Source of the DNA: Sphingobium arseniciresistens
Lineage (GTDB): Bacteria > Pseudomonadota > Alphaproteobacteria > Sphingomonadales > Sphingomonadaceae
Reading direction: 5' to 3'
NCBI GenBank assembly: GCA_029167225.1
Contig: JARFNK010000001.1
Coordinates: 124,001-188,000, forward strand
Length of the DNA stretch: 64,000 bases
The position numbers and the translations under genes are program-made. The notes beneath the pieces were generated by a model. It ran no database searches. It was not told where the DNA came from and saw only the letters and a list, made by a program, of their open reading frames with translations. Positions 19,346-51,664 of this stretch are shown here, one piece after another. Every line of letters starts with the position of its first letter. Positions within the stretch are counted from its first letter, which is position 1.

Positions 19346-20824
19346 ATGGTCACACCCCTCGTCAAGCCGCGCGTGTCATCCGCGCTCATCGATCGCTTTC
19401 GCCCCCTGCTCGACGCCAAGGGCGTGATCGACGACCCGGACGACATCGCCCCCTGGACGCGCGACTGGCGCGGCCGGTTTTTCGGCCAGGCGGCGGCGAT
19501 TCTCTCGCCCAGCAGTACGGAAGAGGTTGCCGCGGTCGTGGGGCTTGCCGCATCGCTCGGCGTCGCGCTGGTGCCGCAGGGCGGCAACACGTCGATGGTC
19601 GGCGGCGCCACGCCGCCCGCCGATGGCAGCGCCCTCATCCTCTCGCTCCGGCGGATGAACCGCATCCGCAGCCTGTCCGCCGACGATTCGCTGGCGGTAT
19701 GCGAAGCGGGGGTGATTCTCTCCAACCTGCACGACGCGGCAGCCGCGCAAGGCATGCGCTTTCCGCTCAGCCTTGGCGCGAAGGGATCGGCGACGATCGG
19801 CGGGCTCATTTCGACCAATGCGGGCGGGACGCAGGTGCTGCGCCACGGCACGATGCGCGCGCTGGTGGAGGGACTGGAGGCCGTGCTGCCCGACGGCAGC
19901 ATCCATCACGGGCTTGCGGCGCTGAAGAAGGACAATCGCGGCTATGACCTCAAGCAGTTGCTGATCGGCGCGGAGGGCACGATCGGCATCGTCACGGCAG
20001 CCTCGCTGCGCCTCGTGCCAGCCATTGGCGACCGCGCGGTCGGCTGGGTCGGCGTGACCTCGCCCGAGCAGGCGTTGGCGTTGCTGCGCCTGCTGGAAAC
20101 GCGCATCGGCGCCCTGCTGGAAGGTTTCGAGATCATCGCGGACGACGGCCTTGGCCATGTCCTCTCCCACATTCCCGGCACCCGCTGCCCGATCGGGACG
20201 CGCACGCCATGGCATGTGCTGGTGGAGGCAGACCTGCCCCGTCGGCAGGGCGACGCCGGGGGAGGGAGCAGCGCCGCGCAGCTGCTCGAATCGGCGCTGG
20301 CCGACGCCTTCGAGGCCGGCATCGCGCTCGACGCCGCCATCGCCGCCAATGACGCGCAGGCCGACGCCTTCTGGCGCATCCGCGAATCGCTGTCGGAATC
20401 GGAGAAGGCGCAGGGGCCGGCGCTGCAGTTCGACGTCAGCGTGCCCGTGCCGGCGATGCCCGGCTTCATGACCGGCGCGGCGGCGGCGGCGGAGCGCGCC
20501 TTTGCCGGCTGCACGGCCTCCTCCTTCGGCCATCTGGGCGACGGCAATGTGCATTTCCACGTCCGCGCGCCCAAGGGCACGCCGGACGGCCCCGCCTGGA
20601 TCGCGGCCGAGGGCGAGACCATCAGCGCCTTCGTCCACGACATCGTGGTCGCCGCCGGCGGATCGATCTCGGCCGAACATGGCATCGGCCAGATGAAGCG
20701 CGCGGAGCTGGGCCGGCTCGCCGAACCCGCGCGGATCGGCGCGATGCGGGCGATCAAGGCGGCGTTCGACCCCAAGGGCATCATGAACCCCGGCAAGCTC
20801 ATTCCGCTACCCGAAGAAGGGTGA
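19346..20824 (+). CDS. FAD-linked oxidase (GlcD / D-lactate dehydrogenase family)
   Basis: A 492-residue flavoprotein of the vanillyl-alcohol-oxidase superfamily. The PCMH FAD-binding domain has VPQGGNTSMVGGATPP and SLGAKGSATIGGLISTNAGG; the FAD-oxidase C-terminal domain ends with SFGHLGDGNVHFHV and SAEHGIGQMK, which supply substrate- and metal-site residues in D-2-hydroxyacid dehydrogenases. Likely substrates are D-2-hydroxy acids (D-lactate, D-2-hydroxyglutarate, glycolate); the exact one cannot be told. It stands alone, without glcE/glcF, which argues against a three-subunit glycolate oxidase. Confidence 0.88.
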   Translation: MVTPLVKPRVSSALIDRFRPLLDAKGVIDDPDDIAPWTRDWRGRFFGQAAAILSPSSTEEVAAVVGLAASLGVALVPQGGNTSMVGGATPPADGSALILSLRRMNRIRSLSADDSLAVCEAGVILSNLHDAAAAQGMRFPLSLGAKGSATIGGLISTNAGGTQVLRHGTMRALVEGLEAVLPDGSIHHGLAALKKDNRGYDLKQLLIGAEGTIGIVTAASLRLVPAIGDRAVGWVGVTSPEQALALLRLLETRIGALLEGFEIIADDGLGHVLSHIPGTRCPIGTRTPWHVLVEADLPRRQGDAGGGSSAAQLLESALADAFEAGIALDAAIAANDAQADAFWRIRESLSESEKAQGPALQFDVSVPVPAMPGFMTGAAAAAERAFAGCTASSFGHLGDGNVHFHVRAPKGTPDGPAWIAAEGETISAFVHDIVVAAGGSISAEHGIGQMKRAELGRLAEPARIGAMRAIKAAFDPKGIMNPGKLIPLPEEG

Positions 20825-20893
20825 AGGCCCGGTTCCGGCGCTGGAAAGCGGATACCCCGCCCGCCAGGGACTTCGTAAGGCTGCGCGCGGCGG

Positions 20894-20927
20894 GCCTCGG
20901 CGACACGGCAATGCCGGCAGGCTTTTT
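20894..20927 (+). terminator. Probable Rho-independent terminator
   Basis: GCCTCGGC and GCCGGCAGGC can pair with a 2-nt bulge, followed by five T residues. It lies 70 bp after the FAD oxidase stop and 135 bp before sapC. The remaining gap to 21061 shows nothing else. Confidence 0.5.
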
Positions 20928-21061
20928 CCCGAAAGCCGTATTCCTTGGGCCGTTTACCGACAAAGCAATTGCGTCGGGCGCGCGAGCCCTTTACTGCGCT
21001 GACCCCATCCGACCGATCAGCCCGGCAACGTCCGCGCACCCGACCCGATGGAGAATTTTTG

Positions 21062-21856
21062 ATGGCGACCGCGCCGACCAGCACCCTGCCGATCTTCTAT
21101 GGCGACCTGATTCCGCTCAACAGCCAGGAGCATGCCAACTGGCACACGCGCCCGGTTGAATCGCTGCCGTTCCTGGCGCAGCACCATGCGGTGCCGCTGA
21201 CGATCGACGAGTTCGTTCCCGCCCAGCGCTTCCTGCCGATCATCTTTTCGTCGGGCGATGCGCCTGTGCCGCTGGCGCTGATGGGCCTCAACGAGGGCAC
21301 CAACGTCTTCGTGGACGAGGCCGGCAAGCTGCTCGGCCGCTGCTATGTGCCCGCCTATATCCGCCGCTACCCCTGGCTGCTCGCCAAGCTGCGCGCTGAT
21401 TCGGAAGAGCTGTCGCTCTGCTTCGATCCCACGTCCAATGGCGTCGGCGAGTTCGAGGAAGGCGAGGCGCTGCTCGAGGCAGACGGCCAGCCGACCGAAG
21501 TCACCAAGAGCATCCTGAGCTTCTGCGAGGAATTCGAGCAGGCGGCCGCGCGCACCGGCCAGTTCATGAACGACCTGAAGGACATGGACCTGCTGATGGA
21601 AGGCGAAGTCGCCATCCAGGTGCCCGGCAACGAGCAGCCGTTCATCTATCGCGGCTTCCAGATGGTCAACGAGCAGAAGCTGCGCGACCTGCGCGGCGAC
21701 CAGCAGCGCAAGCTGGCCCAGAACGGCATGCTGCCGCTGCTCCACGCCCACCTCTTCTCGCTGCAGCTTGTGCGTGACATCTTCCAGATGCAGGTCGAGC
21801 AGGGCAAGGGCCCCATCGTGCCCGCGCCCCAGCAGCCGGTCGTCGCCAACGCCTGA
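21062..21856 (+). CDS. sapC: SapC family protein
   Basis: A 264-residue SapC-like protein with the family opening (FYGDLIPLNSQEHANW), VPLTIDEFVPAQRFLPIIF and RRYPWLLAKL. The name comes from Campylobacter fetus, where SapC is tied to S-layer export; alphaproteobacterial members are common but their role is not established, and there is no signal peptide here. The start at 21062 is preceded by GGAGAA about 6 bases upstream. The C-terminus is an Ala/Pro/Val tail. Confidence 0.88.
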   Translation: MATAPTSTLPIFYGDLIPLNSQEHANWHTRPVESLPFLAQHHAVPLTIDEFVPAQRFLPIIFSSGDAPVPLALMGLNEGTNVFVDEAGKLLGRCYVPAYIRRYPWLLAKLRADSEELSLCFDPTSNGVGEFEEGEALLEADGQPTEVTKSILSFCEEFEQAAARTGQFMNDLKDMDLLMEGEVAIQVPGNEQPFIYRGFQMVNEQKLRDLRGDQQRKLAQNGMLPLLHAHLFSLQLVRDIFQMQVEQGKGPIVPAPQQPVVANA

Positions 21857-21892
21857 CGCGCTGCACAAACGAAGCGCCTGAAAAACTTTGCG

Positions 21893-21934
21893 CGGCCATG
21901 GCGGTCCGGGGGCTTTTTCCCGGCGCCATGGCCG
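21893..21934. repeat. Perfect 11-bp inverted repeat downstream of sapC
   Basis: CGGCCATGGCG (21893-21903) and CGCCATGGCCG (21924-21934) are exact complements around a loop that itself contains CCGGG/CCCGG pairing and a T5 tract. This may act as the transcript end of sapC or stabilise its 3' end. It lacks a T-run after the outer stem. Confidence 0.5.
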
Positions 21935-21983
21935 TTTGCGCATAACGCTTCGTCGCATCGCGGCAGAATGTTTGCGTAAAGAC

Positions 21984-22012
21984 TTGAAACCCTTCGACCT
22001 CTCCCCTATTTT
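21984..22012 (+). promoter_or_regulatory. Sigma-70 promoter of candidate sRNA
   Basis: TTGAAA (21984-21989), a 17-bp spacer and TATTTT (22007-22012) form a good housekeeping promoter. The predicted transcription start is near 22019, immediately before the structured RNA. Confidence 0.65.
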
Positions 22013-22018
22013 GAAATC

Positions 22019-22131
22019 ATGCAGCGCACCTGCCCCCCTTTCGGGTGTGTTGCATTGGGCGTCTCCTCCCCTTTGGAGACGTCTCCTCCCTGAACCTTGG
22101 CCGCCCCATGCATTGCATGGGGCGGTTTTTT
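22019..22131 (+). ncRNA. Candidate trans-acting sRNA with duplicated anti-SD motif
   Basis: An autonomous transcription unit of about 113 nt with its own promoter and a strong terminator. Predicted folding: stem-loop 1 (22021-22053) with a C-rich loop; stem-loop 2 (22060-22081) with the perfect stem CGTCTCC/GGAGACG and loop TCCCCTTT; and the terminator hairpin 22101-22129. The 10-mer GTCTCCTCCC occurs twice (22061-22070, 22081-22090), once across stem-loop 2 and once single-stranded before the terminator. CTCCTCCC is complementary to a strong Shine-Dalgarno sequence. Alphaproteobacterial sRNAs such as CcsR and the 'cuckoo' RNAs use the same kind of motif to repress translation. No ORF of note lies within it. 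Confidence 0.75.
22101..22131 (+). terminator. Strong Rho-independent terminator of the candidate sRNA
   Basis: CCGCCCCATGCA and TGCATGGGGCGG form a perfect 12-bp stem with a very small loop, followed by TTTTTT. This is among the strongest terminators in the window and no coding gene ends directly before it. Confidence 0.9.
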
Positions 22132-22240
22132 CTTGGTCTTCAGGGTATGCCGACAATAGGAGGCTCCGGCGCGTGGCGATATTCAGGCCATGCGGAACCG
22201 GAAACCTGCTCCCGCTTTTCAAGATAGCGCTTTGTTCAGC

Positions 22241-23137
22241 TTATTCAGCGGCCAGCGCATAGCCTTCGCCGGGCATCTCGCTCGCCAGGGCGGCGGCGAT
22301 GTCCGCGACCAGCGCGCGGATCGTGGCCAGCCCCGGCGTGATCCGGTCCCGCGCGATGTCGAGATAGAGGCTCCGGTCGACCTCGAGCTGGATCGCATGC
22401 CGGTCCCGTGCGGGGCAGCCATGCCGCTCCACCGTATAATGCCCCGCATAGGGATGATTGAGCGCCGCATTAATGCCACGGCTCTTGCAGATGTCGGCGA
22501 CCAGTGCCGAGAGCCGGGGCGCCGCGCCGCGCCCGAACAGGTCTCCCACAACGATCCGCGGCGGCCGGCGATCCTCCCCCGGCGGCAGGGGCGGCATCGA
22601 ATGCACGTCGATCAATATGGCATGGCCATGGCGATCGCGAGCCTCCCGCATCATCTGCTCGATCGCTTCATGATAGGGGCGGTGCCAGCGCGCCACCCGA
22701 TCCTGGACATCGGCCCATTCCAGCGGCCCTACCCACAGGTCGCCGACTCCGGGCAGTCGCTGCGGAATGAGGCCCAGGCCGCCCCGCAGCTTCGCACTGG
22801 TGATAAAAGCCTGACCATGAGGCGCCCCCCTGATGACACTGGGGTCAATTTCCCGCTCATGGCGGTTGAGATCGATGAACGCGCGGGGAGCATGCGCCAC
22901 CAGCACGGGAAATCCCTGCGCGATCGCATCGTGCGCGAGCAGGTCGGCATAGCGGTCTTCCAGACGCTGCAACATGGCTGGACGTGCCCGGGAACGGGCC
23001 AAAAGCTCGGCTGTATAGGCCCGGCCGGCATGCGGGACGGACAGGATCACGGCACCCTTGCCAGGCTGTGGCCCGTAACGATCAAAGGCCGCCGTACGCT
23101 CAGCGGGCTGATGGGGCGTGGCCGTCAGACTGTCCAA
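22241..23137 (-). CDS. N-formylglutamate amidohydrolase family protein
   Basis: A 298-residue member of the FGase family, zinc hydrolases that release glutamate and formate in one histidine-degradation route. Family landmarks are ILSVPHAGRAYTAEL near the start, RAFIDLNRHEREID, LIDVHSMPPLP (metal-binding His) and HAIQLEVDRSLYLD. No hut genes are adjacent, so the physiological substrate may differ. It is divergent from cpdR across 173 bp. Confidence 0.87.
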   Translation of the reverse strand: MDSLTATPHQPAERTAAFDRYGPQPGKGAVILSVPHAGRAYTAELLARSRARPAMLQRLEDRYADLLAHDAIAQGFPVLVAHAPRAFIDLNRHEREIDPSVIRGAPHGQAFITSAKLRGGLGLIPQRLPGVGDLWVGPLEWADVQDRVARWHRPYHEAIEQMMREARDRHGHAILIDVHSMPPLPPGEDRRPPRIVVGDLFGRGAAPRLSALVADICKSRGINAALNHPYAGHYTVERHGCPARDRHAIQLEVDRSLYLDIARDRITPGLATIRALVADIAAALASEMPGEGYALAAE

Positions 23138-23310
23138 TCACACATCCTTTCATTGCCCGATTCGTCGAAAATCGGTCGGGTGGCTGGAAAATATTAAACC
23201 CTTGTCGCATAAGCACTGACTTCCTGTCACCTCCCATGGTGCATCGCGCTCACGCGTTGGATGGTCATGGTGCGGCGGGTCGGAACAAAAAAAGAGATGT
23301 AGAGGCGGAA

Positions 23311-23688
23311 ATGATCCGTATCCTGTTGGCGGAAGACGATGACGCAATGCGCCAGTATCTGTCGCGTGCGCTCGAGAAATCCGGTTATGCGGTGGTGGCG
23401 GTGGACCGCGGCACGGCGGCCGTTCCCCTGATCGAGGCCGAGCATTTCGACCTGCTGCTGACCGACATCGTGATGCCCGAAATGGACGGCATCGAACTTG
23501 CCCAGCATGCGGCCACCGTGGCGCCCAACATGCGGGTGATGTTCATCACCGGCTTCGCCGCGGTCACGCTGAAGGCGGGCAAGGCCGTGCCCCAGGCAAA
23601 GGTTCTCTCCAAGCCCTTCCACCTGCGCGACCTGGTGCTGGAGGTCGACCGCATCTTCGACACGAACAGCGTCACCGGCCTCAGCTAG
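23311..23688 (+). CDS. cpdR: Single-domain response regulator CpdR
   Basis: A 125-residue stand-alone receiver. The acidic pocket is EDDD at the start, the phospho-acceptor is D52 in LLTDIVMPEMDG, and the conserved lysine is K101 in LSKPF. Sequence and size match CpdR, which in alphaproteobacteria is phosphorylated by CckA via ChpT and, when unphosphorylated, primes ClpXP for degradation of CtrA and other substrates. The start at 23311 (MIRILLAEDD) is preferred over the long upstream frame, which has no similarity. ChpT is encoded 34 kb away in this window. Confidence 0.9.
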   Translation: MIRILLAEDDDAMRQYLSRALEKSGYAVVAVDRGTAAVPLIEAEHFDLLLTDIVMPEMDGIELAQHAATVAPNMRVMFITGFAAVTLKAGKAVPQAKVLSKPFHLRDLVLEVDRIFDTNSVTGLS

Positions 23689-23817
23689 GGCCTTCCGCCG
23701 CAAGCGGCGTTGCGGGCGCGGCATGGGCCGTCGATGTCCATGTTCATCTTTCGCGTTGCAGATGCAGATTCCCGCTTGCAACGAGTCACCACCCCCGCTA
23801 ATGGCTCGCTTCCCCGT

Positions 23818-23892
23818 GGGCGTGTAGCTCAGTGGTAGAGCACTGTGTTGACATCGCAGGGGTCGCAAGTTCAATCCTTGCCACGCCCACCA
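23818..23892 (+). tRNA. tRNA-Val (anticodon GAC)
   Basis: A 75-nt cloverleaf: acceptor GGGCGTG/CACGCCC with encoded ACCA, D arm GCTCAGTGGTAGAGC, anticodon stem CTGTG/CGCAG with loop TTGACAT giving GAC, and T arm GCAAG/CTTGC. It reads GTC and GTT. Confidence 0.95.
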
Positions 23893-23896
23893 TGAC

Positions 23897-23931
23897 AAGG
23901 CCCGGACATCCAAGCGATGTTCGGGCCTTTT
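23897..23931 (+). terminator. Terminator after tRNA-Val
   Basis: AAGGCCCGGACAT and ATGTTCGGGCCTT form a 13-bp stem (one G-U pair) followed by T4, starting 4 bp after the tRNA CCA end. Confidence 0.85.
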
Positions 23932-24005
23932 CTGTACCCTCCCCCCAATATCGGCTCAGCGGGTAGCCAAAGCGCCCCTTTCATGGTGCGTACACAGGGT
24001 ATCTC

Positions 24006-51263: not shown

Positions 51264-51664
51264 GATTCGCCAGAGGGCCTGTAAGCCGGGTTCTGTCCAC
51301 CCTTTGCAGGGATGGGCGACCATTCCTCTAGGGACGGGATTGCTCCCGTCCTCAAGCAACCAACCCGGGCGATCTCGGCCGAAACAAGCCTAGCGAGTTG
51401 CCTCGCGCGCCGCCCCTATTCGGTCTTGCTCCCGGTGGGGTTTACCATGCCGTTCCCGTTGCCGGGTCCGCGGTGCGCTCTTACCGCACCCTTTCACCTT
51501 CGCTGGGCCGAAGCCGTAGCGACCTGCTCTCTGTTGCACTGTCCCTGAAGACCGGGCGAACCCGACCCCCGCCGGACGTTATCCGGCACCGTTGTTTCGT
51601 GGAGCCCGGACTTTCCTCGCCGTGGATCGCTCCACGCCGCGGCCGCCCGGCCCTCTGGCAGGGG
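51264..51664 (-). ncRNA. rnpB: RNase P RNA
   Basis: About 400 nt on the minus strand. Conserved landmarks are the 5' P4 strand GAGGAAAGTCCGGGCTCC (51601-51620 region), the CR motif GGTGCGGTAAGAGCGCACC (P10/P11 region), and the 3' P4 strand ACAGAACCCGGCTTA (51281-51295). The P1 helix is formed by GCCAGAGGGCC near 51649-51659 and GGCCCTCTGGC near 51269-51279, which fixes the ends to within a few bases. It is the catalytic RNA for tRNA 5' maturation. Lies between the amidase and the TPR gene. Confidence 0.95.

Follow-up and report, generated by a model that had tools for sequence, protein, structure and literature searches.

The closest described relatives of the RNA studied here are the αR8 RNAs, among them SisA of Caulobacter crescentus and MmgR of Sinorhizobium meliloti. 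According to the part of the published account available to us, an αR8 RNA carries the single-stranded 10-mer UUUCCUCCCU after a weak hairpin, followed by a terminator, and most species have one copy adjoining a gene for N-formylglutamate amidohydrolase (FGase) (PMC12559287). The same part reports that SisA represses many mRNAs, including those of TonB-dependent receptors, by Hfq-aided pairing of its core with Shine–Dalgarno (SD) regions, and that αR8 RNAs steer carbon use in Caulobacter and the storage polymer in Sinorhizobium (PMC12559287). A further member of the same Rfam family, the 61-nt SuhB of Sphingopyxis granuli TFA, acts in trans with Hfq, binding the 5′ UTR of thnR and lowering its translation, as stated in the accessible portion of PMC6563040. 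The literature that we searched contained no account of an FGase-linked αR8 copy in sphingomonads, and the family survey given as ref. 42 of PMC12559287, a source available in part, may include one.

In the window, i.e. the whole 64-kb stretch of DNA that was analysed, our data support a conserved sRNA gene whose core is of the anti-SD type and which has a promoter, a terminator and covarying stems (Table 1). The original prediction had described a TTGAAA-17-TATTTT promoter, about 113 nt of highly structured RNA and a terminator at this place, and each of these elements held up. The RNA at 22019–22132 is predicted to form a very stable three-hairpin fold of −63.3 kcal/mol, far better than that of shuffled sequence (z = −8.17, 0 of 200 shuffles equally good), and the terminator has a hairpin and a U run. 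The promoter boxes are also present, and in an alignment of 30 Sphingobium loci they are conserved against their spacer, with invariant columns at 5/6 positions of the −35 box, 3/6 of the −10 box and 0/17 of the spacer. Taken alone, the sigma-70-type pattern is not significant (one site in 20000–24000 compared with 0.6 ± 0.8 in shuffles) and the count of terminator-like hairpins is weak (two in the region scanned compared with 2.7 ± 2.1), so it is conservation that lifts the locus above chance. In the same 30 loci, all 16 columns of the linker 22081–22096 are invariant, compared with 0 of 13 in the downstream flank. Among 44 sequences of the family a loose promoter pattern, written after the alignment had been viewed, fits 32 loci, compared with 162 of 4400 shuffles. 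A coding function was rejected as unlikely: mechanically called ORFs overlap the gene, but the ATG at 22019 is ATA in several relatives, and gaps in the loops among relatives are not multiples of three.

Table 1. Positions in the window of the sRNA gene, its predicted elements and the neighbouring genes
Feature	Position	Strand	Details
SapC-family gene, upstream neighbour	21062..21856	+	Pfam PF07277, E 1.4e-68
Promoter	21984..22012	+	−35 TTGAAA 21984–21989, 17-nt spacer, −10 TATTTT 22007–22012
sRNA gene, very probably an αR8 (mmgR/sisA) orthologue	22019..22131	+	start judged by the −10 box, end by the U run
Stem-loop 1	22019..22055	+	14 pairs, loop CCCCCCUUU
Stem-loop 2	22057..22084	+	contains most of the first GTCTCCTCCC copy (22061–22070)
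Conserved core GUCUCCUCCCUGAACC with the second motif copy; probable seed region	22081..22096	+	
Intrinsic terminator	22099..22131	+	13 pairs and U run; hairpin 22099–22127
FGase (N-formylglutamate amidohydrolase) gene, convergent neighbour	22241..23137	−	Pfam PF05013, E 2.5e-62
Single-domain response regulator gene	23293..23688	+	Pfam PF00072; start codon uncertain

The spread of the gene was determined with sequence and covariance searches. By blastn in 61 genomes the RNA was found in 35, all of them Sphingobium (the window genome and 34 of the 36 others of the genus), and no match was obtained in the 24 genomes from other families. The two misses within the genus are G002 and G025, the latter 60% complete; a search with our covariance model R1 likewise gave no RNA beside their FGase genes. 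Model R2, built from Sphingobium sequences only, detected the RNA in 85 of 99 family genomes at E ≤ 0.01, 81 of these at E ≤ 1e-6, with one match in 83 genomes and two in G087 and G134. The earlier model R1, whose results rest mostly on sequence, had given 84/99 in the family and 49/60 genomes at E ≤ 0.01 in an order-wide search, mostly weakly outside the family. Moreover, a 19-base core pattern matched at least 120 stretches in named genomes, including Sphingobium chlorophenolicum NBRC 16172; among the 80 matches listed, 7 are loosely named bins or a Streptomyces, and the other 73 bear names of Sphingomonadales.

The three stem-loops are kept with compensatory changes, and thus the covariation of stem-loops 1 and 2 across sphingomonads, which the original prediction had proposed to compare, is present. 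In the genus alignment (MAFFT, 25 of 30 rows), from which L018, L024, L028, L029 and L030 were omitted because MAFFT shifted stem-loop 2 or for cleanness, 99.9% of cells pair and six pairs changed on both sides; shuffles gave 1.9 such pairs, none of 500 reached six, and every slide was worse. The number of pair types in this alignment was not above shuffles (16 vs 15.9). In the family alignment, pairing cells make up 97.6% of the total and both sides have changed in 30 of 35 pairs, compared with 20.8 in shuffles, figures that lean towards structure since the 44 sequences had been fitted to R2. Of these 44, 11 come from the 30 genus rows, 5 are additional genus loci and 28 belong to other genera; they were taken at a stricter cut-off so as to drop antisense terminator matches, and across them the 13 terminator pairs are kept with 99.7% of cells paired. 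When all 30 genus rows were given to RNAalifold, stem-loop 1 and the terminator were recovered, but stem-loop 2 was replaced by a short helix that pairs GGAG with the core.

The original prediction had called the RNA an orphan, a label that does not stand, because score, core and gene neighbourhood point to αR8. The Rfam search proposed there gave RF00519 (suhB/mmgR) as the best family, with 40.4 bits just under the cut-off of 41 (E 4.8e-7, or 1.8e-6 for the whole genome). All 20 Sphingobium orthologues scanned matched this model, at 32.3–43.8 bits and with 4 of them reaching 41 bits or more; of 20 loci from other genera, 10 matched at E ≤ 0.1 and none reached the cut-off. The window core UCUCCUCCCU is alike to the αR8 10-mer at 9 of 10 bases, as given in the accessible part of PMC12559287, and the exact 10-mer occurs in 7 of 44 orthologues. 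The core follows a hairpin, with CCUCCC predicted to be unpaired and the preceding bases mostly paired; a Rho-independent terminator lies right after it, and an FGase gene stands beside the copy. The window RNA shares with SisA and MmgR the order of hairpin, single-stranded CCUCCC core and terminator, as well as the convergent FGase neighbour, as far as the published part describes them (PMC12559287). It differs from them in its core sequence, in a further 5′ stem-loop with a C-rich loop, and in the position of the core, which lies at about nt 63–72 from the presumed start, compared with a paired region at nt 33–45 in the part of PMC12559287 that treats SisA. By eye, inverted repeats are also found upstream in several class-wide αR8 loci, and a 5′ hairpin in itself may therefore be nothing unusual.

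We conclude that the window RNA is very probably the single-copy, FGase-linked αR8 sRNA, orthologous to MmgR and SisA. The reading that an unrelated sphingomonad sRNA merely resembles αR8 through a shared CCUCCC core before a terminator would account for RF00519 scores that fall slightly short of the cut-off in the window and far short of it in other genera, and for the fact that copies of another type in the same genome outscore the window RNA. This reading is improbable, however: the similarity extends past the core (GAACYTGG), R2 recovers 24 of 29 class-wide RF00519 loci at E ≤ 0.01, although it was built from Sphingobium alone, and the convergent FGase and the regulator recur as neighbours in class-wide loci.

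In the window the sRNA is followed by the convergent FGase gene, the response regulator, which we take to be CpdR-like, and a tRNA-Val gene. Among 30 family loci, which are the best-scoring R1 matches with the window included and not a random draw, FGase is next door in 28, the response regulator beside FGase in 27 and SapC upstream in 25. FGase lies no further than about 1.5 kb away in 18 of the 29 class-wide RF00519 loci retrieved, and in all 18 it is convergent. Within the genus, SapC lies upstream in 35 of 35 loci and FGase adjoins the RNA in only 5 of 35, the window among them, while FGase is present somewhere in all 37 genus genomes searched. A tRNA gene is close by in the place of FGase in all 20 genus loci scanned, and this was tRNA-Glu in 6 of 6 checked. 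In the SapC tree the window falls just outside 30 rows without FGase (support of that clade 95/93); the node that joins it to these rows has weak support (91/37), and three changes in total are required to explain the FGase label. Most simply read, the window retained the old FGase order and most Sphingobium lost that neighbour. Coincidence of the FGase adjacency had been considered, since at first look 29 of 29 other Sphingobium loci lacked FGase, and was ruled out by the old arrangement in the loci of G017, G027, G031 and G033 and in other genera. As a side observation, the block of FGase, response regulator and tRNA-Val at 22241–23892 itself looks old. In one relative (L024, 2394–2635) a cobalamin riboswitch of 95.2 bits lies downstream of the sRNA.

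The original prediction had laid weight on a duplicated 10-mer, GTCTCCTCCC, starting at 22061 and 22081. Both copies are present, and as had been claimed, the first spans stem and loop of stem-loop 2, with its first six bases predicted to be paired and its last four unpaired. The second had been called single-stranded, which fits CCUCCC at 22085–22090 (predicted unpaired 0.89–0.98) but not GUCU at 22081–22084 (0.00–0.22). The shorter CTCCTCCC occurs at 22063–22070 and 22083–22090 and nowhere else in the window, where 2.63 ± 1.78 would be expected by chance. The stems and the second copy (22081–22090) are kept in relatives, the latter in 30 of 30 genus loci; the first (22061–22070) is restricted to the window genome and is therefore a change of one lineage. 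Accordingly, the importance that the original prediction had given to the layout with two copies is not supported: CCTCCCTGAACC occurs in 44 of 44 family sequences, whereas two copies of CTCCTCCC occur in 1/30 Sphingobium loci and 1/44 family sequences, both times the window, and two functional anti-SD copies were rejected on the latter count. In an αR8 locus from another family of the class (L280, about 1500–1570) two UUUCCUCCCU cores stand in tandem, so doubled cores arise elsewhere too. Core accessibility was predicted for the family: CCUCCCUG is unpaired at 0.8 or more in 35 of 44 sequences (median 0.89) and below 0.8 in the other 9, with a lowest value of 0.30. In 37 of 44 sequences the loop of stem-loop 1 is C-rich, with at least four C followed by U3C.

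In the mechanism that we propose, transcription from a sigma-70-type promoter would yield about 113 nt of RNA, in which two 5′ stem-loops precede an exposed pyrimidine core, CCUCCCUGAACC, and an intrinsic terminator forms the end. This core would pair, probably on Hfq, with G/A-rich SD regions of several mRNAs, and ribosome binding would be blocked there. By analogy with SisA and MmgR, the RNA would be expressed, would use Hfq and occlude SD regions, and would act on targets that serve nutrient uptake or storage. Given αR8 identity, we consider it quite likely that the RNA would be an SD-covering repressor, and the whole reading, a sphingomonad αR8 orthologue that would act in trans in this way, seems probable to us. 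The broad translational repressor of the original prediction would fit the action of SisA as published in the accessible part of PMC12559287. An hfq gene is present in the genome (L294 1486–1970; G000:C27:62235–62666). This gene has two PF17209 matches, of 106.9 and 88.7 bits, in one 194-aa frame and seems to encode two Hfq domains in that frame; double Hfq proteins occur in sphingomonads.

The complement of the core, AGGGAGGARA, is not enriched in the genome, with 10 matches including the gene itself and 10 for the control, so that targets, if any, would use shorter or imperfect pairing. Two of the nine other matches sit 12 and 5 nt before an ATG, followed by frames of 496 aa (L139) and 224 aa (L142), respectively. 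The lack of excess would also agree with an αR8 relative whose main role is that of a sponge or decoy, directed at another RNA or protein, rather than that of a repressor covering SD regions. The available part of PMC12559287 describes a mutual action of αR8 RNAs and the sponge CrfA in Caulobacter, but it also states that SisA is itself a repressor of mRNAs, 8 of its 10 tested targets having been confirmed. We give the decoy function little likelihood.

The genome has other RNAs of the same Rfam family: RF00519 matches six more loci, five above the cut-off and one at 37.5 bits (L032, L033, L034, L035, L036 and L038). These six SuhB-type copies share another core, CATCCTCTCC, and differ from the window RNA in their neighbours as well: neither FGase nor SapC was found within about 1.5 kb of them, two of these loci ending at a contig end. 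R2 detects one of the six, weakly (16.8 bits). From its length of 61 nt, TFA SuhB appears to belong to the type with this core. In some relatives, copies of the SuhB type lie a few hundred bases apart, e.g. G095:C10:100449 and 100673. A tentative scenario, which we regard as rather unlikely in its entirety, is that αR8 evolved into a two-handed regulator in the sphingomonads. The single copy linked to FGase and SapC would combine the αR8 core with a second, always exposed seed, the CCCCCCUUU loop, for G-rich sites; the dispersed SuhB-type copies would have switched their core to CATCCTCTCC and to other targets; and the window genome would be trying a third site, the extra CTCCTCCC half exposed in stem-loop 2.

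Membership of the αr14/cuckoo family (NfeR1), whose RNAs have an anti-SD motif on each of three hairpins and act on many mRNAs, is very improbable. RF02344 (ar14) gives 35.2 bits over the whole window RNA (E 4.6e-5), which also has three hairpins with pyrimidine-rich loops, and the model matches 2 of 20 family loci at E ≤ 0.1. This score does not reach the cut-off of 58.8, the neighbourhood is that of αR8, and the motif is not in all three hairpins of the window RNA, one copy being partly in a stem and one in the linker. In the accessible part of PMC10746234, αr14 RNAs occlude ribosome sites and carry CCUCCUCCC in unpaired parts of each of the three hairpins, whereas the relatives found here have CTCCTCCC once and outside hairpin loops. 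CcsR1 (RF02791), with a pyrimidine-rich motif of the CCUCCUCCC type, was also rejected as a family (13.0 bits compared with a gathering score of 65.3, E 1.7). That the locus amounts to no more than a bidirectional terminator for two converging genes, upstream of which any structure is due to chance, would suit the hairpin and the gene order of the window but is scarcely credible, since the promoter boxes, stem-loops 1 and 2 and the core show conservation and covariation, and do so as well in the 30 of 35 genus loci where FGase is not the neighbour. The hairpin 22099–22127 itself is close to a palindrome and gives matches on either strand; it may therefore act for the convergent FGase gene too.

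The FGase-linked αR8 gene occurs once in most sphingomonad genomes sampled, yet the Rfam cut-off misses the window and all 20 loci scanned from other genera; R2 could help to divide RF00519 into FGase-linked and SuhB-type groups. Members of Sphingobium and related bacteria find use in the breakdown of pollutants, and together with the roles of αR8 RNAs in carbon use and storage this makes the gene a plausible handle on catabolite control. Elsewhere in the window, at 51266–51658 on the minus strand, lies a class A RNase P RNA (265.4 bits).
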